From positions 1 through 21,429 of the IMG/VR virus record IMGVR_UViG_3300020159_003004: a DNA stretch of 21,429 bases, one strand, 5' to 3'. A model generated the notes under the pieces. It searched no databases, was not told where the DNA came from, and saw only the letters and a list, made by a program, of their open reading frames with translations. Positions within the stretch are counted from its first letter, which is position 1. Each line of letters starts with the position of its first letter. Source of the DNA: a virus. Positions 4,641-20,992 of the stretch are shown piece after piece. The translations under genes were made by a program, and so were the position numbers.

Positions 4641-6191
4641 TTAGAACTGCAAAATGACTTTAATATCTTCTTTTTGGTTTGATGACCTTGTAATTGCGGG
4701 TCTATTGTCAACGTAAATGATGTTTCCCGAATGTCTCTTTACCTCTGGACTGGAAATTCCGTTGGAAAAAGTCTGACCAAGGTAGTATGTTCTATTATTT
4801 ATTACTGTAGATATACCACTGAAGTTATTGTCAATTGTCAAATTTCCTATTGAACCACCAGAAATAGTTAATGCACCTCCAGTTCCAGGTGAGGATGTAA
4901 ATTCTGTCAAATCAAATCCATAACTAGGATTCGTTTGAGATGTTCCTACCGTATTAAATCCAACGAGAGTTCTATCTTGCCAATATTTTAAAACTCCAGT
5001 AGTTTGATTATAACTAATAATTCTACCAACCGCTGTTGTGCCGGTTGAAACTGTTTGGGTTATAAAGGAATCTGCAGTAAAAGTTGCAGAACTATATCCA
5101 ATTCCCGTTAAACGAAGTGCGTTAACTGCACTAGCTCTATCTGCAGACAATAATGTCCCTGTGGTTACCTCAGGATTTTCTACAACACCAACTCTTGCAA
5201 TTTGATTACCGGTGATGAAATCGGGATTTTCGTTATTATTTTCAATTCTAGAGTAAAGAAGAACGTTATATGCTCCAAGTTCTCTATAGATATCATATCC
5301 ATGTCCGCCTTTTGGTGACATAATTACATCAAATGTTGGTCTTGTAGTGCCTGTCGGGACATTTCCGCCAACTAAATCAATATTTGCATAAGTATACCCA
5401 GATCCTTGATTTGATACTGTTACAGTTTCTACTTCTTGGTCATTATTAACAACGATTGTGCATTCTGCACCACTACCATTTCCCCTAATGGGAACTCTGG
5501 TATATGTTGTGTTTGCGGTTCCTATTCCAACACCTCTATTTGTAATAGATATAATTTTTATTGACCCATCAACTGCATTTTCTCTAACAGCAGAATTATC
5601 AGTTGAAGTTGCCCAATTCTGCGGAACAGGAATAAAGTCAGTAGATTCGAATTTCACAATATCTGCAGGTTTAATTGTATAAAGATACTTCCAGATATAT
5701 CCATCTCCACTTGAACCAGATGCTCTTGGTTCTAAATCAGTAAAAAGTGGTTCATCTAAAGAAGGTTTTCCATTAGGTGTTTCTGGAGTTGTGCCATTTT
5801 GTAAGCAAATATAAACTCTATACTCACTATTCATTACAAAGTAAAAAGCAGAGTATAAATTTGTTGCTCCAGAAACTTTGGCTGTATTTGTTCTGCTATA
5901 ATCATGACGATACATATCATACGTAGTTCCGGAAGTCCAAGACCTCTTTGGAACAACTTGACGAACATCTGAAGAATTAATTTTCTTCAAGGCAATCATG
6001 GTGTCCCAATAACTATTCTCTTCATTAAAATTATCTTTTGGTGCTGGTGGATTTTCATCCCAATCAGTTTGATATTCAGATGGATTTGGTAATCCAATAA
6101 AAGAATAATATGAGTTTGCAGAAGAACTTACACCAGACACAAAATTCTTAGCGTTTAATATTCTAATCTGATCAGTTATAATTGCAGACAT
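4641..6191 (-). CDS. gp8: Baseplate wedge subunit gp8
   Basis: This is an outer baseplate wedge protein, which in T4 forms a dimer that binds gp7 and gp10. It is 516 residues, against 334 for T4 gp8. The N-terminal half carries gp8 family landmarks: YYSFIGLPNPSEYQTDWDEN, a WDTMIALKKI helix, VVPKRSW (T4 has VIPRRDW), EYRVYICLQNG, and SGDGYIWKYLYTI (T4 has GDGYVWEYLFEI) at about residues 160-172. The extra length comes from a GxGY-type beta repeat (GNGSGAECTIVV, then NQGSGYTYANIDLVGG, about residues 236-275), resembling the repeats in the upstream giant protein, and a beta-rich C-terminus. It ends six bases before the next gene and has its own late-promoter-like element. Confidence 0.93.
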   Translation of the reverse strand: MSAIITDQIRILNAKNFVSGVSSSANSYYSFIGLPNPSEYQTDWDENPPAPKDNFNEENSYWDTMIALKKINSSDVRQVVPKRSWTSGTTYDMYRHDYSRTNTAKVSGATNLYSAFYFVMNSEYRVYICLQNGTTPETPNGKPSLDEPLFTDLEPRASGSSGDGYIWKYLYTIKPADIVKFESTDFIPVPQNWATSTDNSAVRENAVDGSIKIISITNRGVGIGTANTTYTRVPIRGNGSGAECTIVVNNDQEVETVTVSNQGSGYTYANIDLVGGNVPTGTTRPTFDVIMSPKGGHGYDIYRELGAYNVLLYSRIENNNENPDFITGNQIARVGVVENPEVTTGTLLSADRASAVNALRLTGIGYSSATFTADSFITQTVSTGTTAVGRIISYNQTTGVLKYWQDRTLVGFNTVGTSQTNPSYGFDLTEFTSSPGTGGALTISGGSIGNLTIDNNFSGISTVINNRTYYLGQTFSNGISSPEVKRHSGNIIYVDNRPAITRSSNQKEDIKVILQF

Positions 6192-6224: not shown

Positions 6225-9200
6225 TTAGACTATGTAGTTTTTGTATTTTAACGAAGTGCTCCTATTCACTGCTGCTGACGTAGTAATTCCCGATACTCCA
6301 CTATTTCCATAGAAATTAAATTCATTATCACTAACTCTAGAAGTAAGTAGTATTTTACCCCAACTAAATTCTCCGATGTATTTGGAAGTTGTGATAGAAC
6401 TTGCATTACTGGTAGAGAATCCAACAACATTTACATTAACTCTTCTTACTAAAGTTGTAGCAGTGCCGATAGTTGATATTCCAATTGAAGTATTTGCAAC
6501 ACTTACATTAGTTACTGATATGACTTGATAAACATTGTCAACAAATTGAGTTCCTGTTCCAATATTTGAACCACTGCTGGTTTTTGAAGTAAATGATGTA
6601 GATGCAACACCAACATTTGAATTGTAAACAACGAAAAAGTCGCCTGTGGTTATTCCACTCATCGTGACAGATGTTCCAACAATAGAAGAACTTCTTAGAT
6701 ATGAGTCAATTGGGATATGTAGATCAAATATTAATCTATAATCAGACCCAACCATAGTTGTTCCAAAACCAACAACAACACCAGAATCTCCAGAATAAGA
6801 TTCTACGGAATTAGTTTCAATAACTGACGTTGGGGGCTCAATTAAAACAGATGGTGGATTAGTTGATGTATATCCTGTTCCTGCATTAGTTAATGTTATT
6901 GTTGTAACAACTCCAGAAAGAACCGAAGCAGATGCAATAGCAGTAGTTCCTAAACCAATAGATTGTGCGGTGTTCCCAATACTAATAGAAGGAGTGGAAA
7001 TGTATCCTTTTCCGCCATCACTAATTGATATTGATGTTATTGTTCCCGCAGCAGAAACAATAGCAGTGGCAGATGCTCCAACTTTTTCATCTTGGGAAAT
7101 TAAGGTAACTCTATTTTGGAAAGTCAAACTAGTTTGACTTTCATTTATTGGATTAAAGAATGGTCTTAAATTATCGACGTAAACGATAGTTGTACCAACT
7201 CCAACTGGTTGTATTAAGTAAGCAGTTGGGTTAATAGTTGGCTCATAGAGCATTCTATCTTTGGTTATTTCTTTTTCATCTATAATCTTGTCTTCGGTTT
7301 GACGACACCAAGTAATTGTTCTAGATAAAGATTCATCACCAGTATTTCCTGGACCAAAATATGGATTTGTATTTACTAAATCAGTTGCTAAAATTGAAGT
7401 AACTGTTCTTTCTTCTTCTTGGAGGGTTGGTTGTTGTCCGATAGATGAGTCATAACCAAATATTAATTGGTCACCAATTTTCACTGTTTCTAATATATTT
7501 CTTTCCACAACATCAACCGTTCCACTTCCCTTATAGAAAAGAATTTTGCAAGTATCATTTGTTCCAGGAATTCCCAAACTTGTTCCTTTCGGAGCTTCAG
7601 TAAATGTTATGATACTTCCACCTTCAAAAATATATCCTTGTCCCGGAACTTGTAAAATGTCATTTACAAAGACTAGAAGTAAATCCTGAACGTTAATATT
7701 AGATCCCTTAGCTGCTTTAATTGAAGTTAAGTTTCCATTAACTGTTAATGGGAAAGTAGTTGTTTCACTATCAAACAGTCCGGAAATATCATCAAAAGAT
7801 TGTAATTCACCGAGAGACCATCCAGTAAATTTATCTGAGAATATATTTTGTACTGTAATTTGGAATTCTTTAAATGACGATGTTGTAGGTATTCCCACCA
7901 AACCACCAATAGGGACAGTTAATATTTCATTTTCTCTATATCCATAACCAGTATTTTTAATTTCAAAGTCAATTACACTAGAACCTTGTCCAACTACAAC
8001 GTCAATTGTTGCTGCTGTTCCAATTCCAATTGGTGAAGAAGAACTATAAACTAATGGAATATCTGAGTATGATAATGGATCATCAAAAATAACTTTTGGT
8101 GGATTTGTTGATGTGTATCCAACGCCAGGATTTGTGATGGCAATACTTACAATATTTCCCCCACTCACTGCTGCTGTTCCTATGAAATTCAAATAGAAAC
8201 CATTTGAATCATATGTTTGAACACCTACTCTCACCGTCTGAATGCCAGATCTATATCCAGAACCACTATTTCCAATACTAATTGATGAAATTGTTCCAGC
8301 AACAGAAACTATTGCTGTTCCTCCTGCAGCAACCAAAGGTTGATAACCAAATCCTTCAGTTGAACCAACAGAGATGATAATTCCTCCGGTGGGAAGATTC
8401 GATGAATTTACATCATACGAAACAGAAGTAGCAGTTCCGGTGAAGGTTATTGATGTAATACCAACGCTTTCGGATAATGTGTAATTTACATCTGAACCTG
8501 GTCCTTGGAAAACATCATTAATTAATATGATAGCGTTTTCATTTGAAATTCCAGTTACATTTGAACCAGAAGTTTTTAATGCAAATGTTCTATTTACGCC
8601 TGTGAAATTATCTGAAACGTCATCAAAAATATAGTTCTTGTAATAAGACTCATTAGAACTATTAACTATACCAGATCTCATGAAAGATCTACCGTGGAAG
8701 TGTGAGCTTGTTGATATTCCAGACCAATCTCTTTCGTCCGGTGGATTAGTTATACTTCCAATTGGAATGTTACCATATGGAGCTTCTACAAAGTTTAAAG
8801 TATTATCGATAATATTATATGTTCCTCTTACTTTTGTAACTATTGTTCCCGTCGAATAACCAGCAACTGTGGTGCCAAGCCAAGGTCTTCTGACTCTTAT
8901 TGCATTTGTGCTTCCAATACCAACTCCTTCAATTTTCATTATTTCGCTTCCAATTCTTATCAGATCTCCACCAAAGAATGAAGTTATACCAGTAAAATAT
9001 AACAAATCATCTGTCGTAAAGGCATTAACTGCAAGAGTCGTCGTTTGGGCGGTAGCAACAACTGGTGATTGAATAATATTATCGATTGAAATTAAAACCT
9101 TAGCATTCTGATTATGTGAAGTAAACTTATGAGTTGCCCCAACTCCAACTGTTGTTAAATCAAGAACATTTGGAATCGATTTTAATGAATCTGTTGCTGA

Positions 9201-12200
9201 TGTTGCTACTTTTACTTTATTTTCATTAACCTTAACGATATAAAGAGTTGATGGAAGTTTATCCGTCGAACCAAGACCAGTTATTGTTGTAGTTGCAATT
9301 CCTATTGCTGTTGTAGTACCTGCACCAGCACTAGTATAAGTTACTTTTTCTCCAGTTACAAAGAAGTGCCCTGGAATTTCTATCGTGTTGTCAGTTAGAC
9401 TTACGATTCCGGCATTAGACCCATCAAAATATCTTTCGAAAATTTGTGCTCCATTATGTGTAAGATTAAACGCTCTCTTTAAGTCACTTTCTGTTCCATA
9501 ATAATTTGCATAATTGGTTTCAATTGTTCCATTGTCTAAATCAACAATATCTCTAGAATCATCTTGTATTCTTAAGATATTTGCGTAAACTTTAACTTGA
9601 GTTTCAATATTAGGTAAAGGTGTGAAAGTTAATTGGGTAGTTTCTCCAATACCAGTTATTACTCCACCTATAGTTCCAATTCCAGAGTGTGTTTCTAAGT
9701 TTCCAAATTCTGTTACATATGGTTCCGGATATGCATCATCATCTATCATTACAACTTCCGATATTTGATGTCTATTATTTGTCAAATCTGTGACTTGAAC
9801 TAGACAATATGCCGCACTATATTCTCCAGAATACTCCAAAATAGGAGATGCTGTTGGTGAAGTCGAAGAAGCTATTGATGTTGTTTTTGCAGTTAATACA
9901 GCGTGCTTCATTTCTAATGTTCCAACGCCAACACTAGATGTATTTGCAATGCTAACCGTTATTGCATCAATATAGGTGGTTGTTCCAATACCAGCATTTG
10001 AAATAAAGTCAACTTTTACAGTTGAACCAGAAATGTATGGATAATATGTTCCATATCCACTAGAAGATAATGGTGTTGTCAAAGATCCAGTAGTAAGTTG
10101 ACCGTACTCAATTAACTCAACATTTGTGCCATCATGAACCAAATTTAACTCATCAAACTCATATTCACCATCCCCACCGCTCATTTCTATTAGAATTTTG
10201 GCTGAAGTATACGTGGTAGCAAAACTTACAACATTTACAGTTGATGCTGCAGAAACACTAGTGTTTGTTGTATTAATATTAACAATCGGTCCTATTGTGG
10301 TGCTTCCAACTCCACTTAGGTTATTCTTTAAATTATAAGAAAGTGTAGTGACATCATAATCATTTACTGTATACTTCGTTGGATAATAATTTAAGATTCC
10401 ATCTGACCCACTTACGGCTAAGTCAAAAGATCCAAGATCATATGAAGTCTCAACTCTTCCATATTGATTCAAATATCCATTTATATTATCATGAATCAAA
10501 GTTACCAACATTACCTGCCGCTGACCGGTATATCTTCTATCTTTAATATAGGTAATGTATTTCTGAGCTCTTATGTCTCTTAGATCAAATCGATGAACTT
10601 CTGCATAATTGGTTGGTCTTGGATTACTATTAAATTGAGAACTAATATCGTCTATTAATAAAACTCTATTTCCAAATGATTCAAAGTAATCAGTTAGAAT
10701 TCTATTGTTAAATGATATTCTATTTGAAAATACCCTTGTTCCTATTCTTAGAGAATTTTCTTTAGATAAGTCAAAATCATAAAAACAATTTAAGTCTCCA
10801 AGACCAATCATATCAACAATAACATCCACACCGGTTATTTGTGTCGAAACACCAACTGTTAATGATGTATTTGTTTCTGGAGAAACTTTGGATTCTATTT
10901 GTAGATCTGAGAATTTTTTAAATCCAACTGTGTGGTTTAGAGTGCTTACTGCATCATTCCAAGTTTCAAATGGTATCTTTGATTTTATTGAATATGAGAA
11001 ATTCTGATAGTAGAAGTTATCCTGTATTCTTTGCTCTTCATTATTTAAGAATCCAGCACTAGTTTCCCAACCACTTTCAACTTTTGATGTTGAATCTAGA
11101 ACAGCGTAATAATCAAATTCTGTAATAGATGAAGCAAATCCTTGAGTTTTTGAAGACAAACCTTCAATTTTATTATTAACTTCAAATTCGTCTTTGGTTG
11201 ATACTTTTAAGTAATTTATAATTGGATCCCAACTCTCAACTAAACCAGTTGAATCTCCTGATTTTACAATTTCACCAACTCTGTAATCATTTTTCTTTAA
11301 AATTGAAACAAATTGTGGGAAAAACTTTTCTGGTATAATTCTGCCAGCAGAATTGGATGCATCAAAACTACCTGGAAATTCTGTTCCAGACAAGTAACCA
11401 TCTAAACTATAAGATACTGAGCCTATTCCACCAATATTTGCATCAATATCAGTTAATGTAAAGAGTTGATAATTATAGTTTTCCGAATTAAATCCTTTTG
11501 CCGTAGAACCTATGCCAACGCTAATATTTTCAATTAAAACTTTATCATTAACCTTGAATGGGAAGGCATCTGAGGTATTATATCCAGTTGATAATCCAAT
11601 TGTAACTTTTTTAGTTGAATTATTATAAGATACTGTTCTAATACCAACACCATTTGAGTTTTGTATCGGAAGAATAACTGGATTTGTGTTATACATTCCG
11701 TAACTATTATTTTTAATTTCAACTTGATTTTTGCCAAGTTCATATCTTAAATCAACTTCTGGTACTATCTGTCCAGTTTTGCCATCAAAAACTAATAATT
11801 TTGGTGCAGAAACATATCCTCTACCAAAGGAAGAAACTCCAACGGATTGGAATGATGTTAAACTATCAATTTTTATTATTTTTGGTAATGCTACTTTTGG
11901 TTTTAAAGTACAATCAGATGGATAATCGAATCCAACATTCATTATTTTTGTTTTTGTAATCCTTCCAACAGAATTGCTCTGAACCTCAAGAACTGCTCCA
12001 GCACCAATATTCGAAGTTACGCTTGAAATTGCTGGTAGAGTATAGTAATTAACTCCTCTATTCAGTACTTTAATATTTTTTATAGGTCCATATGCTGATA
12101 TTGAATCAGTATAATAATTTAAGTCTGATGTTGATGATATGTATGAAGATGCTTCAGGTTGTCTTGTTAAGAAGTAGTTAAATGATGTTGTCGTAGATAT

Positions 12201-15200
12201 GGAAACTTTGTGAGTTCCATTATAAAAACTTTTTTCTATTTGTAACTCGTTGTAAGAGTTAATAGAGTCATCTGCTAATATTTCTTGCTTCTCTATGGGA
12301 AGAGTGCTTTCATAAACAGGAATTAAATTATAGTATAAAACTTTTGGAAGTTGCTCATTAACAATTAATCTCAGTTTTGCATCTGAAGAAATTCCTACAA
12401 TTCCAGTTCGTTGGACATTAAAAGTAGAACTATACTCTGACGTATCAAAAATATTTTTAAATTCCCTATCTTTAAATATTTCAAATCTAAATGCAGAGTA
12501 TCTAGTTGATTGGTAAGTATATGATAAAGAAGAATCAGATAAATCAAATTCAACTACAGAATTTTTATATAGTTTTAACGAAGGATTTACTTGCGAAAGA
12601 ACTCCAGAAGATGCACTTGTAATATTGATAACATCTGGAACTCTCTTAGTTGAATTGAAGTAGCTATCTGATAATCTAACGTTGTTTTTATCTACAAAAA
12701 TTATGTAATAGGTTTTTTGATCAATCAAACCTCCAGATGGTGAAGTTGATGTATGAATTACTTTATCACCACTATTAAAATTATGATTTATAATTGTTAT
12801 AGTGTTTGTAGTGATATTTACGTCACCTGCGCTAAAAGATTTTGGATTGACTACAATTTTTCTATTGTAGTCATTATACTTTAATGTTATTGATGTTGTA
12901 ATAGATGGACTTACATCAACTTCAACATAATCATCATTTAATAGTCCATGAGTTTGTGCTGTAGAAACAGTAACCACATTTCTGGAAACTTGTCCCGTAA
13001 TTACGGAATAATTTGTAACGAAACTATGATAAACACCAGTTCCAAATCCAGTAAAAAATACTGGTCTAATATTACTAGTTGTATTACCAATACCAGCAAA
13101 GAATCCTGTACTTCCAAGACCAACTTTTACAGTAGATATTCCTATAAAATTGTCATTAAACTTGGCAACGTAAACACTAGAATTGTTTATTAATGATGTA
13201 GTGCCGACACCAACAGAGTAAATTGATATGGGAGTTCCGGTATTAGTCTTATAGGTTAATTGATCTCCAGTATTTAATTGGTGGTTGGGAAGATAAATTG
13301 AACCATTCTCTATGAATACTTGAGTTGCTCCAGCGCCAGGGTTAGAGAAAGTAATAGTTATTCCAACACCAACAGAAGTATTTGTTCCTATCGCAATAGA
13401 TTCGCTTGGATTAAAATAAATTTCTTTGTTTATAGAATATGAATAATCCGTTTTAAAACCAGAATTTATTTTTAATCTTCTTGGGTTTTCGTATATGACT
13501 GTTGTAACACTATGAGACGTGCCAACTGTTCCACTAATTTGCCTTAAAATTCTTAATCTAGATGAAATATTGTCAATATTGAGAACTTTTACTTTCTCAT
13601 TATCCATGGAAAGAATATCATTTTCTCTTATATTCGAAAATCCTAGAGAACCCCTTACAGAAATATAAGTAACAATTCCAGTTGCACCTATGGTTCCAAT
13701 ACCAATAGTAGAAGTTCCTATTCCAACTAATGATAATTTGCTTGTTTCTATTCCAGCAACATAATTACCTTCTATAAGCGATGAAGTTGTGCTTAATCCA
13801 GATACTGAAACAAGATCAAAGTCGGTGAAATTGTGTGGATTTTCATTATATAAAATATATTCCCCTTTATTTCCAATTGGATAAAATTCAACATTATTTA
13901 AAGTACTGCTAGCAACACTTATATTTGAGATTGTTTTTCCAACAATTTTTGAAACAACTGCAGCCGCAGAAAATCCTCTAATGTTTCCACCAGAGTCAAT
14001 ATTATTAAATACGAGTGGATCATTTACTTGGTAGTTATTTCCTCCTGTTAAAATACCAATACTATCAACATACCCTGGAGAGACTCCAACAACATCAATT
14101 GTCTGATTTAGTTTATTGGGTATAGTTATGTACTCATAAGTTGATTCATTTTCTATGATGTTATATGGATAAGTATTTCTAACCCAGTTTGTCTTATTTA
14201 AATCTATTACATTTTGATTAGAAAATCTATCAAAGTTAAACTTATTTGGTTTTGATTTAAACTTATTTCCTATCAAATATGGGAAAATGGGTTTTTTATA
14301 TCTTGCAAAAGGACCGGAAGATTCGACACTAGAATTATCTAAAGTCGCAAAGTATGCATATGTTCCCTTTGGATAATCTGGAGTTATGCAAAATCTTCCA
14401 TTATTTTCATCTAAAACAGTTTCATCATTTGAGTTGTAATAAATATAATCTTCGATGAAAAATCCTTCAGGGAAATGATTTAAAGAAGGTCTAGATGAGC
14501 TTAATTGCAATCTATAACCACTCTTCATCTGCGAAACTACTCCACCGGATTTTGTAGAATATCCATATGGACCATAAATTGGATTTCCATCATAAGCCCA
14601 TCCAATTATAGGTGAATGATCTGTAGAATTTATTTCTACAGAATTTGATATTCTTAAATCCGAATTTGAATATAAAGTTTTTCCTGCTTGATCTTTGGAA
14701 AAGATCAACTCTCTTAGTTTTCTAGGAGCATATATGTGACTATATTGTAAACCAAATTCTTTTCCAGTTCCTATTGTTAAGAATCCATCATCTTCTGATA
14801 TTTTGCTTATATATTTTTGGAATAAATTGACAGTCCAAGACTTTATTTTTGCTCTAAACGTTGCCCCAGATCCAGGATGAACGGCAACAATAGACGTTGA
14901 TTCTTGAAGATATCCACTACCCTCATCAATCACTTTAACTTCGACTATTTGATTATTTGAAATAACTGGAGTCAAAACTGCACCAGAACCACTACCAGAA
15001 ATAATTAAATTTGGAGAGGAAGTGTAGTTTCTACCAACATTATTAACCAGAACCTGTTTTATCTTTCCATTTGATATAACTGGTTGAAATTCTGCATTAG
15101 AACCACTGGCAATTGTTATAAGTGGTTGTCTATCAAGATTAAATATATCTTCAACACCATAAGAAGACCCGCCAGAGGTCATGTGTATTGACTTAATAGA

Positions 15201-18200
15201 ACCTCTAAAAATTGGTTCTATTTGAGCTTTATAACTTGTGGAGATTCCAACGTTTCCAACTAACTCGACACTTATAGTTGGATAATTGAAGATGTGAGTG
15301 TCTCCATTAGTTGAAGTAATATCAATATATTGTTTGGTTTTGTAGTAAAAATCTTCACTAAGATTTCCACTACCAACTTGAGAGACTCTAAAATTATTTT
15401 TGTCTACTTTTGTGACGACATAGTTTGTATTATTAGAAAGTCCTCCAATTACATTACCGGAAGTTGAATAAGTTACTATTTCACCAGATGAAAAATCATG
15501 GTTTTTAATGTAGATTGAATCTGTTGAGGTATTGATGCCTGATGCAGAAACAGTTCTTTTTTTGTTTTGATACCCAAATCCAGTATTTTCTACAGTTACT
15601 GAAGCAAGAATTGATTTCTTATTAATTGTTTCAAATGAATGGTTTCCAACGCCATGTCCTGTTAAAAATATTGTATTAATTCCAGAAATAGCATCATTGA
15701 AGTTTCTATGTAATTTTATTTTTGTTGTAGAAACATTTGACACATAATAAGTTGCGTCTGTTGTCAGTCCAGTTACGGATTTTTGTCCGAAAGTTTTATA
15801 AATTACGCCTTCGCCATTTCTAAATTTATGTGCAGTTGAAAATCCTATCGTGGAGATTGTACTTCCAATTCCAACTAAATCGGATTTTAATTCAGAATTA
15901 AAAGTTACTTCATGTACGACCAATTTCATATTAGCTCTGGCTTTTGCTCCAGAACCATTACCGCCTGTTATTCTAACAGTTGGAGTATCAAGATAATCAA
16001 AACCAGGATTTACTATGCGAATTTCATTTAAAGAACCAGAAACCGCACAATATCCTGTTGCACCAGTTCCAACAGAATCATTTATTATAATCTGTGGTGT
16101 ATTAATAATATCATAATTAGTCCCTTCAGATAAAATTTCAATATCTTCTATGGGTCCATAAATTATTTTATCCTTTCCTTTATAGTTTAAAATTTCAACT
16201 CCGTTAACTAGAATTCCAGTAAATCCTGAGATAGTTTCTTCAAATAAGTTTGTAGTCTCCGGAGGAGAAACTTCTCTTAATAATTTTTGAGATTCTAAAG
16301 TTTTCCCAGCAAATTCATATGGTTCTATTGTATTATTATTAACTGTTGTTTGATTTTCTAAAGATATAAATTCTTCATTTAAAATATCAGATTTACTCTT
16401 TGCAAATTTTACATTATTTGCATCAACTCTTTTAATGAAGTAAATTCCCTCATCAAAAAGTGTACTAGAAACAACACTAGATGTTGACGAGTTTCCGTCA
16501 ATATCAATAGAAGTTAATTCTGTTTTTTCTGGAGTATAATAAACAGAATCTCCAGTATAAAAACCATGATCTTCTAAAGAAGTTATTGTAAAAGTGCTTC
16601 CTTGAAAAATTCCAGAGAAAATAATAGAGCGATCAGTAGCATTTAATTGTTGATTAACATAATTTGGTATAGATGGAGCAGCAATTAAAGTTTTTTCTCC
16701 ATCCTTATAAATGTTTTGTATGTTAGCTGATAAAATATTTGCGTCTAAAAACTTTGATGAATTTACTTTTAGTATTTTTCTTCTTACTTTAAATCCATTT
16801 CCTTTTAATAGACCTTGGCCAATAATAACTACTGTTTTCTCAGATAAAACATCTAAAACTGTAGAATTACTGATAACAACATCACCCTCTACTATTTCTA
16901 GTATATCTCCAGTTTGAAACGCATGTCTATTTTTAAGTGTTACACTATAAGTTTGATCCGAAGAATCTATAACTTCATAAGACTCTACTTCATATGTTGG
17001 GGAAGTATTAAAAACCCAACCATTATCAAGAGTGCTCTTTCCCTGATATCCTAATGTTGGAATAGTTGCAGTATCATTTTTGCTGTAAAAATAATTTCCT
17101 GTACTAATTGCAACACTATTCAAGATAGAATTAATTCTAACCTTAATTTCAGTACCAAATCCAGTTACAGCTGATGCATATGTATTAATTCCTATCTTAG
17201 AATTATTTTCAATTGAATAATTGACATTACTACATCCTAAAAATTGAGTAAGATTTTTTGTAGTGTAAGATACAATTCCTGTAGTTTGATTGCTAAATTC
17301 TACAGAAATTTCTCCTTGATTTGGAAAACCAACAGTGGAATCTACATCTATTACAGATGAACCAAATGTGAATTGTCCAATTGATCTGGTTTTGGGGTGA
17401 ACTGCAAACTTTCCATAAATTGCCCCATCAAAAGCTGGATCTCTGTTATATCCCCCATCAATTTTTAATTTATAAAAACTTCTTCCATCATCTGAAACTA
17501 CGTTTTCAATTTCTGAAACAGTACCATAAGCCTTGGTGATATTTTGGTATGTATTTTGAAAAAGAGTTAGATTTTGAATATCCTGTATAGGACCAGATAT
17601 TAACTCTACTACCAAATCATTTGTTACTTTGTATTGCGCGTCAGACGGTCTAAAAAGAAAATCCTTAGGGCGTATTACTTTTACTTCATCACCATATAAA
17701 GCCTTGAATAAAATCTCAAAAGAACGATCAGTTCCTTTGCTTTTATAAAAGTCTTTAATTTGTTTTAATAATGTCGATTCATTTACTTTTTCGGTAAAAC
17801 TTCTGTTTTCAAATCCGGGAGATATTTGATATTTTGTTTTAATTAAAAATTCTTTTAAGAAAAGGTTGCTAAGATTGTATATTTTAGTCCCAGCACTATG
17901 GGATTCAGCATTAGAATCTTTAAAAATTAATTGGTCTGAAGTTCTTAGCTTGTAAGTAGAAGCAATTCCAACATTTGTATTTTTATACGCTACAATTCCA
18001 CTGAATCCTCTATAGCAGTTAGTGAATCCATTAGGAGTTCTTGTTTCATATGCAATCACTTCATCGTCTATTGAAATTAGACCATACTTCTCCGGAAATC
18101 CATCAGTTCCAGTTTCGGAATCTAAAAGGTTGATGGTAATATTTTCATCAAAAGAAGTTATGTCAGAACCTAGTACAGTAGAAGTTTTTAGGTTAGTGAT

Positions 18201-18377
18201 AGAATCAAGTTTTACATACTGGTCAATATTTTGCAATAGATCGATTGGAGCTCCTTGAAACTCCTGAGCAAGATAGTATTGCGTTAGAAATTCTCCTACA
18301 AGAGGATACTCTTCTTTGACGTATTGTGGGACTTGACTTTTTACAATATCCTTTAGTTGAATTCTTTTTTCTATCAT
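6225..18377 (-). CDS. Giant modular baseplate/virion protein at the gp7 position (4050 aa)
   Basis: One open frame encodes 4050 residues, about four times T4 gp7 (roughly 1030). Its position between gp6 and gp8 and its N-terminus support a gp7-like wedge role. Residues 1-40 contain VPQYVKEEYPLVGEFLTQYY. A small module with SIDDEVIAY and CYRGFSG follows (about 100-127), then a helical block with IKDFYKSKGTDRSFEILFKA (about 207-226). Beyond this it is a mosaic of beta-rich repeats: GxGY...P modules (about 739-800, 1056-1186, 2096-2246, 3353-3493, 3766-3856), 'TGDxVxY...YYV..V..N' modules (about 579, 839, 950, 1849, 2994), a YHYH-type domain (about 1208-1350), a block with YYQNFSYSIKSKIP (about 2440-2496) and two tandem sandwich-like modules (about 2722-2936). 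There is no signal peptide or membrane segment. It is probably an outer wedge or fibre-like decoration; gp7 homology is inferred from synteny. Confidence 0.85.
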   Translation of the reverse strand: MIEKRIQLKDIVKSQVPQYVKEEYPLVGEFLTQYYLAQEFQGAPIDLLQNIDQYVKLDSITNLKTSTVLGSDITSFDENITINLLDSETGTDGFPEKYGLISIDDEVIAYETRTPNGFTNCYRGFSGIVAYKNTNVGIASTYKLRTSDQLIFKDSNAESHSAGTKIYNLSNLFLKEFLIKTKYQISPGFENRSFTEKVNESTLLKQIKDFYKSKGTDRSFEILFKALYGDEVKVIRPKDFLFRPSDAQYKVTNDLVVELISGPIQDIQNLTLFQNTYQNITKAYGTVSEIENVVSDDGRSFYKLKIDGGYNRDPAFDGAIYGKFAVHPKTRSIGQFTFGSSVIDVDSTVGFPNQGEISVEFSNQTTGIVSYTTKNLTQFLGCSNVNYSIENNSKIGINTYASAVTGFGTEIKVRINSILNSVAISTGNYFYSKNDTATIPTLGYQGKSTLDNGWVFNTSPTYEVESYEVIDSSDQTYSVTLKNRHAFQTGDILEIVEGDVVISNSTVLDVLSEKTVVIIGQGLLKGNGFKVRRKILKVNSSKFLDANILSANIQNIYKDGEKTLIAAPSIPNYVNQQLNATDRSIIFSGIFQGSTFTITSLEDHGFYTGDSVYYTPEKTELTSIDIDGNSSTSSVVSSTLFDEGIYFIKRVDANNVKFAKSKSDILNEEFISLENQTTVNNNTIEPYEFAGKTLESQKLLREVSPPETTNLFEETISGFTGILVNGVEILNYKGKDKIIYGPIEDIEILSEGTNYDIINTPQIIINDSVGTGATGYCAVSGSLNEIRIVNPGFDYLDTPTVRITGGNGSGAKARANMKLVVHEVTFNSELKSDLVGIGSTISTIGFSTAHKFRNGEGVIYKTFGQKSVTGLTTDATYYVSNVSTTKIKLHRNFNDAISGINTIFLTGHGVGNHSFETINKKSILASVTVENTGFGYQNKKRTVSASGINTSTDSIYIKNHDFSSGEIVTYSTSGNVIGGLSNNTNYVVTKVDKNNFRVSQVGSGNLSEDFYYKTKQYIDITSTNGDTHIFNYPTISVELVGNVGISTSYKAQIEPIFRGSIKSIHMTSGGSSYGVEDIFNLDRQPLITIASGSNAEFQPVISNGKIKQVLVNNVGRNYTSSPNLIISGSGSGAVLTPVISNNQIVEVKVIDEGSGYLQESTSIVAVHPGSGATFRAKIKSWTVNLFQKYISKISEDDGFLTIGTGKEFGLQYSHIYAPRKLRELIFSKDQAGKTLYSNSDLRISNSVEINSTDHSPIIGWAYDGNPIYGPYGYSTKSGGVVSQMKSGYRLQLSSSRPSLNHFPEGFFIEDYIYYNSNDETVLDENNGRFCITPDYPKGTYAYFATLDNSSVESSGPFARYKKPIFPYLIGNKFKSKPNKFNFDRFSNQNVIDLNKTNWVRNTYPYNIIENESTYEYITIPNKLNQTIDVVGVSPGYVDSIGILTGGNNYQVNDPLVFNNIDSGGNIRGFSAAAVVSKIVGKTISNISVASSTLNNVEFYPIGNKGEYILYNENPHNFTDFDLVSVSGLSTTSSLIEGNYVAGIETSKLSLVGIGTSTIGIGTIGATGIVTYISVRGSLGFSNIRENDILSMDNEKVKVLNIDNISSRLRILRQISGTVGTSHSVTTVIYENPRRLKINSGFKTDYSYSINKEIYFNPSESIAIGTNTSVGVGITITFSNPGAGATQVFIENGSIYLPNHQLNTGDQLTYKTNTGTPISIYSVGVGTTSLINNSSVYVAKFNDNFIGISTVKVGLGSTGFFAGIGNTTSNIRPVFFTGFGTGVYHSFVTNYSVITGQVSRNVVTVSTAQTHGLLNDDYVEVDVSPSITTSITLKYNDYNRKIVVNPKSFSAGDVNITTNTITIINHNFNSGDKVIHTSTSPSGGLIDQKTYYIIFVDKNNVRLSDSYFNSTKRVPDVINITSASSGVLSQVNPSLKLYKNSVVEFDLSDSSLSYTYQSTRYSAFRFEIFKDREFKNIFDTSEYSSTFNVQRTGIVGISSDAKLRLIVNEQLPKVLYYNLIPVYESTLPIEKQEILADDSINSYNELQIEKSFYNGTHKVSISTTTSFNYFLTRQPEASSYISSTSDLNYYTDSISAYGPIKNIKVLNRGVNYYTLPAISSVTSNIGAGAVLEVQSNSVGRITKTKIMNVGFDYPSDCTLKPKVALPKIIKIDSLTSFQSVGVSSFGRGYVSAPKLLVFDGKTGQIVPEVDLRYELGKNQVEIKNNSYGMYNTNPVILPIQNSNGVGIRTVSYNNSTKKVTIGLSTGYNTSDAFPFKVNDKVLIENISVGIGSTAKGFNSENYNYQLFTLTDIDANIGGIGSVSYSLDGYLSGTEFPGSFDASNSAGRIIPEKFFPQFVSILKKNDYRVGEIVKSGDSTGLVESWDPIINYLKVSTKDEFEVNNKIEGLSSKTQGFASSITEFDYYAVLDSTSKVESGWETSAGFLNNEEQRIQDNFYYQNFSYSIKSKIPFETWNDAVSTLNHTVGFKKFSDLQIESKVSPETNTSLTVGVSTQITGVDVIVDMIGLGDLNCFYDFDLSKENSLRIGTRVFSNRISFNNRILTDYFESFGNRVLLIDDISSQFNSNPRPTNYAEVHRFDLRDIRAQKYITYIKDRRYTGQRQVMLVTLIHDNINGYLNQYGRVETSYDLGSFDLAVSGSDGILNYYPTKYTVNDYDVTTLSYNLKNNLSGVGSTTIGPIVNINTTNTSVSAASTVNVVSFATTYTSAKILIEMSGGDGEYEFDELNLVHDGTNVELIEYGQLTTGSLTTPLSSSGYGTYYPYISGSTVKVDFISNAGIGTTTYIDAITVSIANTSSVGVGTLEMKHAVLTAKTTSIASSTSPTASPILEYSGEYSAAYCLVQVTDLTNNRHQISEVVMIDDDAYPEPYVTEFGNLETHSGIGTIGGVITGIGETTQLTFTPLPNIETQVKVYANILRIQDDSRDIVDLDNGTIETNYANYYGTESDLKRAFNLTHNGAQIFERYFDGSNAGIVSLTDNTIEIPGHFFVTGEKVTYTSAGAGTTTAIGIATTTITGLGSTDKLPSTLYIVKVNENKVKVATSATDSLKSIPNVLDLTTVGVGATHKFTSHNQNAKVLISIDNIIQSPVVATAQTTTLAVNAFTTDDLLYFTGITSFFGGDLIRIGSEIMKIEGVGIGSTNAIRVRRPWLGTTVAGYSTGTIVTKVRGTYNIIDNTLNFVEAPYGNIPIGSITNPPDERDWSGISTSSHFHGRSFMRSGIVNSSNESYYKNYIFDDVSDNFTGVNRTFALKTSGSNVTGISNENAIILINDVFQGPGSDVNYTLSESVGITSITFTGTATSVSYDVNSSNLPTGGIIISVGSTEGFGYQPLVAAGGTAIVSVAGTISSISIGNSGSGYRSGIQTVRVGVQTYDSNGFYLNFIGTAAVSGGNIVSIAITNPGVGYTSTNPPKVIFDDPLSYSDIPLVYSSSSPIGIGTAATIDVVVGQGSSVIDFEIKNTGYGYRENEILTVPIGGLVGIPTTSSFKEFQITVQNIFSDKFTGWSLGELQSFDDISGLFDSETTTFPLTVNGNLTSIKAAKGSNINVQDLLLVFVNDILQVPGQGYIFEGGSIITFTEAPKGTSLGIPGTNDTCKILFYKGSGTVDVVERNILETVKIGDQLIFGYDSSIGQQPTLQEEERTVTSILATDLVNTNPYFGPGNTGDESLSRTITWCRQTEDKIIDEKEITKDRMLYEPTINPTAYLIQPVGVGTTIVYVDNLRPFFNPINESQTSLTFQNRVTLISQDEKVGASATAIVSAAGTITSISISDGGKGYISTPSISIGNTAQSIGLGTTAIASASVLSGVVTTITLTNAGTGYTSTNPPSVLIEPPTSVIETNSVESYSGDSGVVVGFGTTMVGSDYRLIFDLHIPIDSYLRSSSIVGTSVTMSGITTGDFFVVYNSNVGVASTSFTSKTSSGSNIGTGTQFVDNVYQVISVTNVSVANTSIGISTIGTATTLVRRVNVNVVGFSTSNASSITTSKYIGEFSWGKILLTSRVSDNEFNFYGNSGVSGITTSAAVNRSTSLKYKNYIV
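6810..8645 (-). repeat. Duplicated super-module near the C-terminus of the giant protein
   Basis: The same two-part unit occurs twice, at residues about 3245-3493 and 3524-3856. Part one starts FDDVS / FDDIS, followed by a TFxL strand and a 'IILINDVFQGPG' / 'LLVFVNDILQVPG' segment. Part two contains TAIVSVAGTISSISI / TAIVSAAGTITSISI, then a GSGY / GKGY turn, and ends in GVGYTSTNPP / GTGYTSTNPP. At the DNA level a 23-base stretch at 8098-8120 matches 6853-6875 at 21 of 23 positions in the same frame. The spacing between YTSTNPP copies is 415 codons. Confidence 0.75.
9570..10210 (-). repeat. Two tandem sandwich-like modules in the giant protein
   Basis: Two consecutive segments at residues about 2722-2809 and 2849-2936 share one pattern: SA followed by a hydrophobic strand (ILIEMSGGD; YCLVQVTDL), a [FS]-[DE]-E-[LV] segment with an acidic loop (DELNLVHDG; SEVVMIDDD), a Glu-[YF]-Gly core (IEYGQLTT; TEFGNLET), a Gly-Thr turn, and a final strand pair (KVDFISNAGIGTTTYIDAIT; LTFTPLPNIETQVKVYANIL). 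The residue-level similarity is low but the order of landmarks is the same in both. I judge this an old internal duplication of a beta-sandwich domain. Confidence 0.6.
14328..14757 (-). other. YHYH-type domain embedded in the giant protein
   Basis: Residues about 1208-1350 carry the signature of the YHYH domain family: HSPIIGWAYDGNPIYGPYGY, then a Gly/Ser linker, then LDENNGRFCITPDYPKG followed by TYAYFATLD. The name-giving YHYH motif is not visible. The nearest equivalent is QYSHIYAP at about residues 1210-1217. Family membership rests on the downstream signature, which matches well. The function of the domain is not known to me. It is flanked on both sides by beta-rich repeat modules, so it looks like an inserted globular domain. 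Confidence 0.8.
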
Positions 18378-18381
18378 TTTA

Positions 18382-20307
18382 TTATAATCTTACTAGGTTC
18401 CCGTTGTTGTAACTTGAAGAAACAATATATTTTGATGCAGAAGGATCTAATCCAGAAGCAATCTCATCAACAACCATTTCAAAATTGCTGCTATTAATAT
18501 CTAGTTGCAAATAAAGATCCTGTTTTCCGACAACATCATTTGATTTTGGTATTGCGGAAATTTCTATAATTGGTTGACCATCTTTAATTTTTCCTGACAA
18601 TATATTGATAGGATTAATAGTTATGATGCCATTTTTATAGTCTATTGTGCCAACTCCTCTTCTTAAAATACTTGGCGTTCTTGAGTTGGTTGCATTAACA
18701 GTAAACAGGAATAAAGTACCAGTTTCTCTATTTGTATTTGGAATGTCTCCCAAGTAAACCGTTTGAGATATTCCCGCAATTTGAAAACCAGTTGATTTGA
18801 TATTATATCCATCCATACTGAATATGTGAAACTCATTTCCAAATGATATTTGATACTCAGCAAAAGTATTTAAGAGAACTCTTAAATCTCTTCTCATTTG
18901 AATGTTAGTAATATTTGAAGTTATTGATTCATGACTATCATCAATCAACTTCAAAAATTTACTATATTTGAATCTGGCACCATATCTATTCAATTCTGTG
19001 GATTCAGAATACTTAGTAACATTTGTCTGAATAATACTTGAAACGAATGCAGAAGATGGTGCTAGATTTGTATTATAGTAAACTTTTGAGTTAACTTCAA
19101 CATAAAGATACTTTAGATCTAAAATTTCCGGAACTATTCCAGCAACTGCATATTTTTTTAGTTTTAACTTTATACTTTCTTTTTCTAAATTTGGTAAAAA
19201 GTCACCAAATCTTGGTTTTATACTAATAAAGACTTTTCCATATTGTGGTGGTATCAGTTCCTCCCCACCAAAAACAGAAATAGCGTCAGTTTCTGGATAA
19301 ATTCTTGATGGAATTAAAGTTTCAAAATCATTTGCAGTTAAAGCTCTATTTTGAGATGCATAAATTCTTGGTGCATATTTTTTAATAGACTCTACGGACT
19401 CAATGTTTTCTCCACCTCTTGCAGACAGTTCAGTGGTAAGTAGGGAAATACCGGAAGTTACAGTATACTCAATAGAGTTTCTTGTATAAGTCAGTCTTCC
19501 AGAAAATGTGAAAGAATTTACTCCATTTGCACCATCACCATTTGAACTTATATAATTTGCAGTTACAAAGTTACCTTCTTCTAGTTTCTTGCCAAATATT
19601 CCATCACCAAAAATTAATTCATATCTTTCATCTTCTATTTCTTGAATAAAATATACATTTGAAGATCCATTTATATCAAATAAACTATCTTGATATGCAT
19701 ATTTTACTGAAGTCGTTGCATTCTCATTACTTTTAACTGAAACCGATATTAAATTCGTGTCAATTCCAGAATTTGGGAGAATAAATCTCTGATTAGGATT
19801 TCTAGAGGAATATGTAAAGTTATTCGTGAGTAGAATTCCCTCATTTATCTTCACATTAGTAAAAGTTGCTTGCTGATTGAAGACAGGAACTGTAATATCT
19901 TCTAATATTGAGAAAGCAAAAGATTGATTGCCAAAATTTCCAGATGAAGTAGATACAATACCCTTTTTTAAAGTCAGAGAGGATGGAGATGGTGTTACAT
20001 TAGAGAGATCTACGAAAAAAGATACTGTTGCAGACGCAGATTTTCTTGAACGAGGTACATATCCTATGTTTCTTGCAAGTGCAACCACATTCTCTCTGAG
20101 TGTTGCACTATCAATAAACACTTCATTCGCAACCATATTAGCATTATATGAGCTAATGTAGGTGTTATATGCCAAAACATCAAGAATAGTTGAGAGATTA
20201 GACCCCTCAAAATCATAATCAGTAAAATTGGGATTTGCTTTTAGATAATCTCTAAGCGTTGCTTTAACCTGATCGAAATCTAGGTTAGAAAAGTTTACTA
20301 GTGGCAT
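18382..20307 (-). CDS. gp6: Baseplate wedge subunit gp6 (baseplate J-like family)
   Basis: This is the central scaffold of the baseplate wedge. In T4, gp6 dimers join the six wedges into the inner ring and contact gp25, gp53 and gp7. The protein is 641 residues against 660 for T4 gp6. The N-terminal helical region is typical: DFEGSNLSTILDVLAYNTY, then YNANMVANEVFID and TLRENVVALARNIGYVPRS (about residues 33-91). A J-like core follows, with YELIFGDGIFGKKLEEG (about 232-248), a SARGGENIESVE segment, and a KYAPRIYASQNRALTANDFE helix (about 309-328), then YGKVFISIKPR. The rest is a beta-rich C-terminal arm. The gene starts two bases after gp25 and ends four bases before the giant gene, so these are probably one transcript. 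Confidence 0.95.
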   Translation of the reverse strand: MPLVNFSNLDFDQVKATLRDYLKANPNFTDYDFEGSNLSTILDVLAYNTYISSYNANMVANEVFIDSATLRENVVALARNIGYVPRSRKSASATVSFFVDLSNVTPSPSSLTLKKGIVSTSSGNFGNQSFAFSILEDITVPVFNQQATFTNVKINEGILLTNNFTYSSRNPNQRFILPNSGIDTNLISVSVKSNENATTSVKYAYQDSLFDINGSSNVYFIQEIEDERYELIFGDGIFGKKLEEGNFVTANYISSNGDGANGVNSFTFSGRLTYTRNSIEYTVTSGISLLTTELSARGGENIESVESIKKYAPRIYASQNRALTANDFETLIPSRIYPETDAISVFGGEELIPPQYGKVFISIKPRFGDFLPNLEKESIKLKLKKYAVAGIVPEILDLKYLYVEVNSKVYYNTNLAPSSAFVSSIIQTNVTKYSESTELNRYGARFKYSKFLKLIDDSHESITSNITNIQMRRDLRVLLNTFAEYQISFGNEFHIFSMDGYNIKSTGFQIAGISQTVYLGDIPNTNRETGTLFLFTVNATNSRTPSILRRGVGTIDYKNGIITINPINILSGKIKDGQPIIEISAIPKSNDVVGKQDLYLQLDINSSNFEMVVDEIASGLDPSASKYIVSSSYNNGNLVRL

Positions 20308-20309
20308 TT

Positions 20310-20711
20310 TTACCTAGTTGGTTGCAAAACAAATTGTAATTCTTGTGCGGGAACGTTGGCTCCTATAATTTGATACTGTATTAATACATCAAAAGAGTTA
20401 TTATCATAATCGGGGGTCACTACAACGTTTGTTAAATCCACTCTTGGCTCATAATTCACAATTGAGGTTGCAATTTCATCCCTAACGTTTGATGCTGAAA
20501 TTTCATCAACATTTTCAAAAAGCATTTTTGTTATTCTCGATCCAAAATTTGGATTGAAAAATTTCTCGCCGGGAAGGGTAAACACAATATTTCTGATTGA
20601 ACGTGATATTGCACTCTCATTTTTGAGTGCTATCAAGTCACTATTCAGAGGATTGCTCTGAAAAGTCATACTAATGTCTTTGAAACCTTGGCTTACCCTT
20701 TCTAGAGGCAT
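20310..20711 (-). CDS. gp25: Baseplate wedge subunit gp25 (gp25/GPW/TssE family)
   Basis: This is a core component of the contractile-tail baseplate wedge. It is predicted to sit at the sheath-baseplate interface with gp6 and help start sheath assembly, as in T4. At 133 residues it is almost the same length as T4 gp25 (132). Family hallmarks are visible: an N-terminal segment of the type PLNSDLIALKNESAISRSIR, a LPGEKFFNPNFGSRI block followed by KMLFEN (about residues 47-68), and the conserved EPR motif in NYEPRV (about 87-92). A C-terminal beta-strand region ends in LQPTR. The ATG follows a late-promoter-like element by 20 bases, but no good Shine-Dalgarno sequence is present: an AGGT lies 16 bases upstream, too far for normal use. 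The stop is two bases before gp6. Confidence 0.95.
   Translation of the reverse strand: MPLERVSQGFKDISMTFQSNPLNSDLIALKNESAISRSIRNIVFTLPGEKFFNPNFGSRITKMLFENVDEISASNVRDEIATSIVNYEPRVDLTNVVVTPDYDNNSFDVLIQYQIIGANVPAQELQFVLQPTR
20313..20315 (-). promoter_or_regulatory. Short ribosome binding site for gp6
   Basis: The minus strand reads AGG five bases before the gp6 ATG, inside the last sense codon of gp25 (AGG TAA AA ATG). The two-base intergenic gap and this placement suggest translation of gp6 coupled to gp25. The signal is short and therefore tentative. Confidence 0.45.
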
Positions 20712-20731: not shown

Positions 20732-20744
20732 TATTTATTAAGGA
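20732..20744 (-). promoter_or_regulatory. T4-type late promoter-like element upstream of gp25
   Basis: The minus strand reads TCCTTAATAAATA, containing AATAAATA, which matches the T4 late promoter TATAAATA at 7 of 8 positions. It ends 20 bases before the gp25 ATG and overlaps the stop codon of the 84-residue gene. The identical 13-mer precedes gp8, which strengthens the call. In T4, such sites are read by host RNA polymerase carrying the phage factors gp55 and gp33. Whether this one is used has not been shown. Confidence 0.6.
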
Positions 20745-20992
20745 TTTTTGGATTCATAGATTGGTTCTGTGCCATATTCCCAATCATCATAGTCTTCATC
20801 ATTACGAATTTGTGAGTGAATTTCGCTCTGATAAAAAAAGTCATGCTTTTTGGGTGTTAGTTCATCATTCGCTATCTCACGAAGCATTTTTTGCTTCTCA
20901 ATTTTAGTTTCCCAACCATACTCACTTGATAAAAACTCTGTTCCCCACTGATTTCTCATAAAATTCTGGTCTTTATCGACTTGTTTGGTCAT
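20738..20992 (-). CDS. Small acidic hypothetical protein (84 aa)
   Basis: This is a short, highly charged protein of unknown function. It begins MTKQVDKDQNFMRNQWG, has a Lys/Glu-rich middle that may be helical (about residues 28-45), and ends in an acidic, aromatic tail containing NDEDYDDWEYG. No catalytic motif, signal peptide or membrane segment is visible. The start is well supported by an AGGAG seven bases upstream. It overlaps the preceding gene by 20 bases, and its stop codon lies within the late-promoter-like element that serves gp25. Its place directly before the wedge genes suggests a small virion or assembly protein. The family is not recognised, although the reading frame itself looks real. 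Confidence 0.75.
   Translation of the reverse strand: MTKQVDKDQNFMRNQWGTEFLSSEYGWETKIEKQKMLREIANDELTPKKHDFFYQSEIHSQIRNDEDYDDWEYGTEPIYESKNP

Follow-up and report, generated by a model that had tools for sequence, protein, structure and literature searches.

The only published mechanism found for the YHYH domain (Pfam family PF14240) is the prediction by Iyer and co-workers in 2021 of a tail-associated Zn-dependent hydrolase, which, in the available part of that paper, is based on a conserved histidine triad plus an aspartate and on fusion to tail proteins, with AOO14285.1 cited as an example of the domain (PMC7824862). Relatives of the domain are found in 463 phage records, nearly all of cyanophages, and most of the genes concerned are annotated as baseplate wedge, structural or hypothetical proteins. 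A 21.4-kb piece of viral DNA (IMG/VR record IMGVR_UViG_3300020159_003004, positions 1 to 21,429; hereafter the window, 21,429 nucleotides in full) contains an open reading frame (ORF) at 6225-18377 that encodes a baseplate wedge protein of 4050 amino acids carrying a YHYH domain; all features of the window given below are, like this ORF, on the minus strand. The three signature histidines of the family are gone in the phage lineage of this giant protein, and the domain is therefore probably structural and not the proposed metal enzyme.

The PF14240 profile matched the giant with an E value of 1.7e-23 and 84 bits (curated cut-off, 25), so that the homology which a first-pass annotation of the window had proposed from a few sequence blocks is real. 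The named blocks are present: AYDGNPIYGPYGY at residues 1261-1273 (14559-14597), LDENNGR at residues 1322-1328 (14394-14414), and TPDYPKGTYAYFAT at residues 1332-1345 (14343-14384). The window has the C-terminal family blocks GWAxDG, LDExNGR, and TPEFPxGxY together with the invariant DG aspartate. In the Pfam match, residues 1249-1349 align with positions 87-185 of the 193-position profile, past the YHYH motif. In a free-standing member encoded by a Deinococcus plasmid, which matched profile positions 2-193, YHYH is located upstream of GWAADG, and the match of the window therefore starts downstream of the motif. The C-terminal TYAYF was considered as the YHYH motif and rejected, since the Deinococcus YHYH precedes GWAADG and YAYF or YAYY likewise occurs at that place in intact relatives from Bacteroidota; for the latter reason, the YAYF in TPDYPKGTYAYFAT does not represent a loss.

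An earlier profile comparison with Deinococcus-like relatives aligned the C-terminal half only, and alignment over the full domain required a closer, HSP-type set. Profile-profile alignment (hhalign) of 115 giants with 18 intact relatives gave an E value of 1.9e-46 over 170 columns spanning the motif, and the main part of the domain was placed at residues 1181-1374 (14256-14837). In this alignment, the intact histidines 1, 2, and 3 map to F1199 (14781-14783), S1213 (14739-14741), and I1215 (14733-14735), respectively, and Y1212, S1213, H1214, I1215, and P1218 stand opposite Y, H, x, H, and P of the intact motif. The G-H...Y-H-x-H of intact members thus reads G-F1199...Y-S1213-H1214-I1215 in the window, and the eponymous motif is missing. 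The first-pass annotation had seen only QYSHIYAP (residues 1211-1218; 14724-14747) where YHYH was expected. It had placed the motif correctly: one histidine, H1214 (14736-14738), is displaced by one position to the variable middle of Y-H-x-H, and the conserved histidines are not at equivalent positions even though the match to the YHYH profile is significant. The loss is broader than had been supposed, as a third histidine, at the F1199 position, is also gone. The sole H-x-H in the whole protein is at residue 3226, distant from the domain.

Histidine was found at all three positions, namely that in G-H (or A-H) and the two in Y-H-x-H, in 69 out of 69 non-redundant intact members, and the upstream aspartate and the DG aspartate were likewise invariant in this set. 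The set was obtained from 139 distinct sequences at a 70% redundancy limit, each covering 150 or more of the 247 model positions, and it includes one viral sequence (L207). Intact members had also been collected as 80 bacterial-genome loci with patterns including YHYH; these are therefore outside the unbiased tally, yet contribute to the set of 69. For motif-independent sampling, two phyla (296 and 299 genomes) were searched with a hidden Markov model (HMM), and 34 and 18 genomes, respectively, matched among the matches listed; ten further records were added, six of these genomes having been chosen for holding a YHYH gene. Of 72 ORFs, 66 remained once 3 giants and 3 duplicates had been set aside, and 64 of these, among the matches listed, had an intact H..YHxH. 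The other two were a fragment of the C-terminal half located at the edge of its locus (L254) and an ORF with DHVH (L257).

The 115 giants are the distinct sequences found in the window, in IMG/VR loci, and in named cyanophages, and not all 463 phage records. At the three triad columns, histidine was present in 0, 0, and 1 of them, respectively, and I, F, Y, V, L, A, T, or G was seen at the F1199 position. Comparison with related marine phages, which the first-pass annotation had proposed, thus revealed the motif loss in all 115 giants, bar one position in P-SSM2. As far as these sequences indicate, the view that the triad loss is a property of the phage lineage and not of one damaged copy is well supported. 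Among the other sites, H1214 is a histidine in 81 of the 115 giants; H1254 (14616-14618) of HSPIIGWAYDG, kept from the intact subgroup, in 113; and the aspartate D1263 (14589-14591) of the DG motif is kept throughout. In the window-type copies, H1214 was found in 71 of 80 rows and H1254 in 80 of 80. The single triad-column histidine, in LAVHGYS at the third column of the P-SSM2 giant (L280), is probably a coincidence of alignment.

Mean identity to the window over 45 giants was 0.516, and that of residues 1251-1350 was 0.68; the latter segment belongs to the top two when 100-residue stretches of the giant are ranked by conservation. It is therefore apparent that the domain is not decaying and is maintained without the triad. 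The earlier suggestion that the fold was kept and an activity lost is accordingly borne out as to the strong conservation of the C-terminal, fold-bearing part, while prior activity and binding remain a prediction. A tree built from 81 C-terminal halves joined every phage copy with the HSP-type members of Bacteroidota in one clade (support 98/94), which also holds one long-branch row (L256). Thirty-four giants including that of the window grouped together (support 95/97), without resolution of the deeper phage forks. On the best tree, the giants require three changes, but a tree with all giants in one clade was not rejected (approximately unbiased test, p-AU 0.357). Each of three long window-related phage records, 184-213 kb in length and of unestimated completeness, contains a single PF14240 match. 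This match is in the giant, and hence no intact copy was found in these records.

The published example AOO14285.1 is itself the giant of cyanophage S-RIM14, a protein of ~6200 residues with a degenerate domain (DTANGGVFSGYNNQYGGEYAHLSNP...), and a search for H-x-H across the whole of it found none. The next gene product, AOO14286.1 (573 amino acids), bears the intact motif GVDACGGHPEQNGRYHYH. Judged by sequence, the hydrolase prediction fails for the giant but may apply to this small protein, and of the features of the hydrolase class the window has the aspartate (D1263, taken as that of the site) and not the histidine triad. Iyer and co-workers (PMC7824862) may have meant other members with regard to the triad. 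The available parts of open-access full texts on YHYH/PF14240 report neither the triad loss in the giants nor the intact neighbour, and earlier reports elsewhere are possible.

Five of nine named small paralogues are intact (S-ShM2, S-RIM14, ACG-2014d, S-SZBM1, and P-RSM6), and four (S-SSM5, S-B64, P-SSM7, and ACG-2014a) have a C-x2-H-x2-M module in place of any H-x-H. In the latter (L281, L088, L289, and L290, from S-B64, S-SSM5, P-SSM7, and ACG-2014a, respectively), HP[IM].FSTT...C..H..M replaces H..YHxH, and the YHYH core follows. The spacing of this module is one that we take to resemble a type-1 copper site; for a cupredoxin reading, no Pfam or PDB support was obtained with the one fragment tested (S-B64). 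A different arrangement was observed in the viral contig L170, whose ORF starting at 5374 combines an intact YHYH domain (GGHVQPNGKYHYH) with repeated W-G-x-N-x-x-G-Q units and has H-x-H in both its N- and C-terminal motifs.

The interval 14328-14757, to which the domain was first assigned, lies within it but is partial: the domain extends to residue ~1374, and its N-terminal half is probably located near residues 676-740 (16158-16352). The intact profile matched an N-terminal half upstream of the core in the giants of S-SSM5 (E value, 3e-9), P-HM1 (2.7e-11), and P-HM2 (8.6e-11). In the window, residues 706-736 matched the N-terminal half, the part of the family that has the NGV motif, weakly (domain E value, 0.016), about 440 residues from the core. 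At a permissive limit, the match was present in 117 of 130 giant ORFs, a number that includes overlapping loci of the same phage. When 87 window-type stretches were compared as a profile with the intact N-terminal half, an E value of 2.7e-7 was obtained, a test that is partly circular because the stretches had been picked with an NG[VI] pattern. The likely anatomy, as judged from these matches, is an N-terminal half, about 440 residues of repeats, and the core; in the window itself, this would place an insert at residues 741-1180 (14838-16157), between the two matches, with a beta-repeat-like character suggested by sequence only.

Some evidence on what the intact proteins do came from their neighbourhoods. 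A HupE/UreJ_2-like gene, so named from the Pfam identity of the query protein, is present near the YHYH gene in 64 of the 80 bacterial loci (L004-L083; also L002:2862-3956). In all 63 readable loci, the two genes share a strand, with the YHYH gene first; in 59 of these, the HupE/UreJ_2-like gene is at most 187 bases from the end of the YHYH gene. Among the HMM-search loci, which have shorter flanks, it was found in 4 only, from genomes already among the 80 loci. The loci are closely related among themselves, and the link therefore counts as one association. HupE/UreJ-2 proteins are nickel permeases, some with metal-binding outer domains, according to the available part of PMC12537917. This neighbourhood hints that intact YHYH proteins are tied to metal transport in an operon-like manner, and it would fit metal handling by them at least as well as hydrolysis. 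Metal or catalytic use of the histidines in free-standing members is accordingly a prediction, made in the literature and joined by this hint.

Structure searches were performed with a fairly confident model of a bacterial intact domain (the YHYH protein of L010; predicted local distance difference test score (pLDDT), 78.5). The best E value against the PDB with Foldseek was 5.7, and 0 of 42 chains reached Z 2 with VIA-align, that is, no solved relative was detected. Sequence searches of the PDB for the YHYH domain gave nothing credible. Matches in a viral library were mostly to YHYH or baseplate proteins already known from phages.

We consider it probable that a YHYH domain was captured into the giant, opened by the insert, and stripped of its triad, and that it now serves as a structural or docking module and not as a metal hydrolase. 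An ancestral T4-like marine phage would have taken a PF14240 domain into its giant baseplate wedge protein, where a long beta-repeat insert would have separated residues ~676-740 from residues 1181-1374. The three histidines that are invariant in free-standing members were lost, with the fold-bearing surroundings and the DG aspartate retained, and the domain would have been kept for its fold in the baseplate wedge; metal binding would be absent. Several points weigh against this account. The 115 giants share ancestry, and the counts of triad loss are therefore not independent losses. The model of the window domain is poor (mean pLDDT, 63.9), so residues were placed without a structure. Taken by itself, the window gives a weak match to the N-terminal half, for which the family test was made on motif-picked stretches. 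The structural role is supported by location and conservation only, and H1214 (81/115), H1254, and D1263 could build a rearranged site.

Such a site, in which H1214, one residue off, together with H1254 and D1263 replaces the triad and still binds metal, is unlikely but is the first of the alternatives to be weighed. The frequencies of the three residues in the giants at large and in the window-type copies are consistent with it. On the other hand, H1214 is missing in 34 of the 115 giants, some of them from the divergent branch (P-SSM2, S-CAM7, and L172-like copies), and the intact subgroup has H1254 and D1263 just as consistently, so that these two need no new role. Slightly less likely is an arrangement in cyanophage baseplates resembling an enzyme and a pseudoenzyme, with both partners derived from one domain, in which an intact, putatively metal-binding small protein would work with the site-less giant as its docking or regulatory partner. 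In that case, window-type lineages would have given up the active partner or would employ a different protein instead.

We regard as more doubtful still a role in host recognition through binding of carbohydrates or surfaces, which the available part of PMC7029224 suggests for pelagimyophage YHYH domains. The giants of S-SSM5 and S-RIM14 do carry Laminin_G_3 (concanavalin-like) matches; however, a Pfam scan of the window's giant found no Laminin_G or lectin match, and few stretches of the giant are as well conserved between phages as the domain core. Receptor-binding parts usually show a variable pattern. A Zn-dependent hydrolase aiding peptidoglycan breach is very improbable for the giant: the published prediction from triad, aspartate, and tail-protein fusion (PMC7824862) is matched by the invariance reproduced here in intact members, but the triad is absent in the window and, save one position in P-SSM2, in all 115 giants, and the cited giant has its intact motif in the neighbour. 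The structural or docking module thus remains the reading that we favour.

The setting of the giant gene agrees with a baseplate protein. The giant matched phrog_2885, a baseplate wedge subunit, with 3811 bits, and its gene is flanked by wedge-subunit genes of phrog_219 (gp6 type; 18382-20307) and phrog_438 (4641-6191). Its profile and its place between gp6 and the next wedge subunit place it with the giant wedge subunits of T4-like marine phages. The neighbouring gp6 shares 74% identity with gp6 of Synechococcus phages S-SM2 and Bellamy, and the YHYH domain of the giant gave tblastn matches within 'baseplate wedge initiator' genes of named cyanophages. Because of the phrog_2885 match, the wedge neighbours, and the gp6 identity, the source phage is inferred to be a T4-like marine myovirus of the cyanophage kind. 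Further along, 20310-20711 encodes a baseplate wedge subunit (phrog_261), putatively gp25 from its position, and an ORF of 84 amino acids in the cluster (20738-20992) had no PHROG match. PF23786 (Baseplate_wedge) matched residues 199-239 of the giant (~17661-17783) below threshold (23.2 bits; cut-off, 27) and the giants of S-SSM5 and S-RIM14 above the cut-off. T4-GC969 of S-SM1, a homologue of the giant, was detected in purified virions, as stated in the available part of PMC3037559, and the label GC 969 is borne by the S-SSM5 giant; a virion location is known for the homologue only.

With regard to known systems, the predicted hydrolase in the available part of PMC7824862 belongs to the same family, and its example is homologous to the window's protein, whereas the predicted triad is in neither. 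Giant copies can be read under this one prediction as peptidoglycan-cutting metalloenzymes, yet they are without the predicted site. The 'baseplate wedge initiator' of cyanomyoviruses (Bellamy gp111, S-SSM7, P-HM2 gp7, and AOO14285.1) is likewise a giant wedge gene with the same degenerate domain, but that domain is at most 55% identical to the window's, and the insert differs in length. The HSP-type PF14240 proteins of Bacteroidota (L216, L220, L225, and L229) share HSPIIG[WYF]A[YF]DG.PIYG.YGY, LDEHNGRFC.TPEYPNGTYAYF, and FPY..G in the same order, align with the giants over the full profile, and group with the phage copies. Unlike the latter, they keep G-H...Y-H-x-H, are free-standing, and have no long splitting insert. 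The small cyanophage YHYH protein (AOO14286.1, S-ShM2, ACG-2014d, S-SZBM1, and P-RSM6) has the same domain in the same operon, directly downstream of the giant, but it is 530-590 amino acids long with DxCGGHPxxxGxYHYH intact or nearly so. The hydrolase claim shifts from the giant gene to this neighbouring small gene, intact in several cyanophages, and the two proteins are a clear pair in which to test metal binding, from viruses that are common in marine cyanobacteria.
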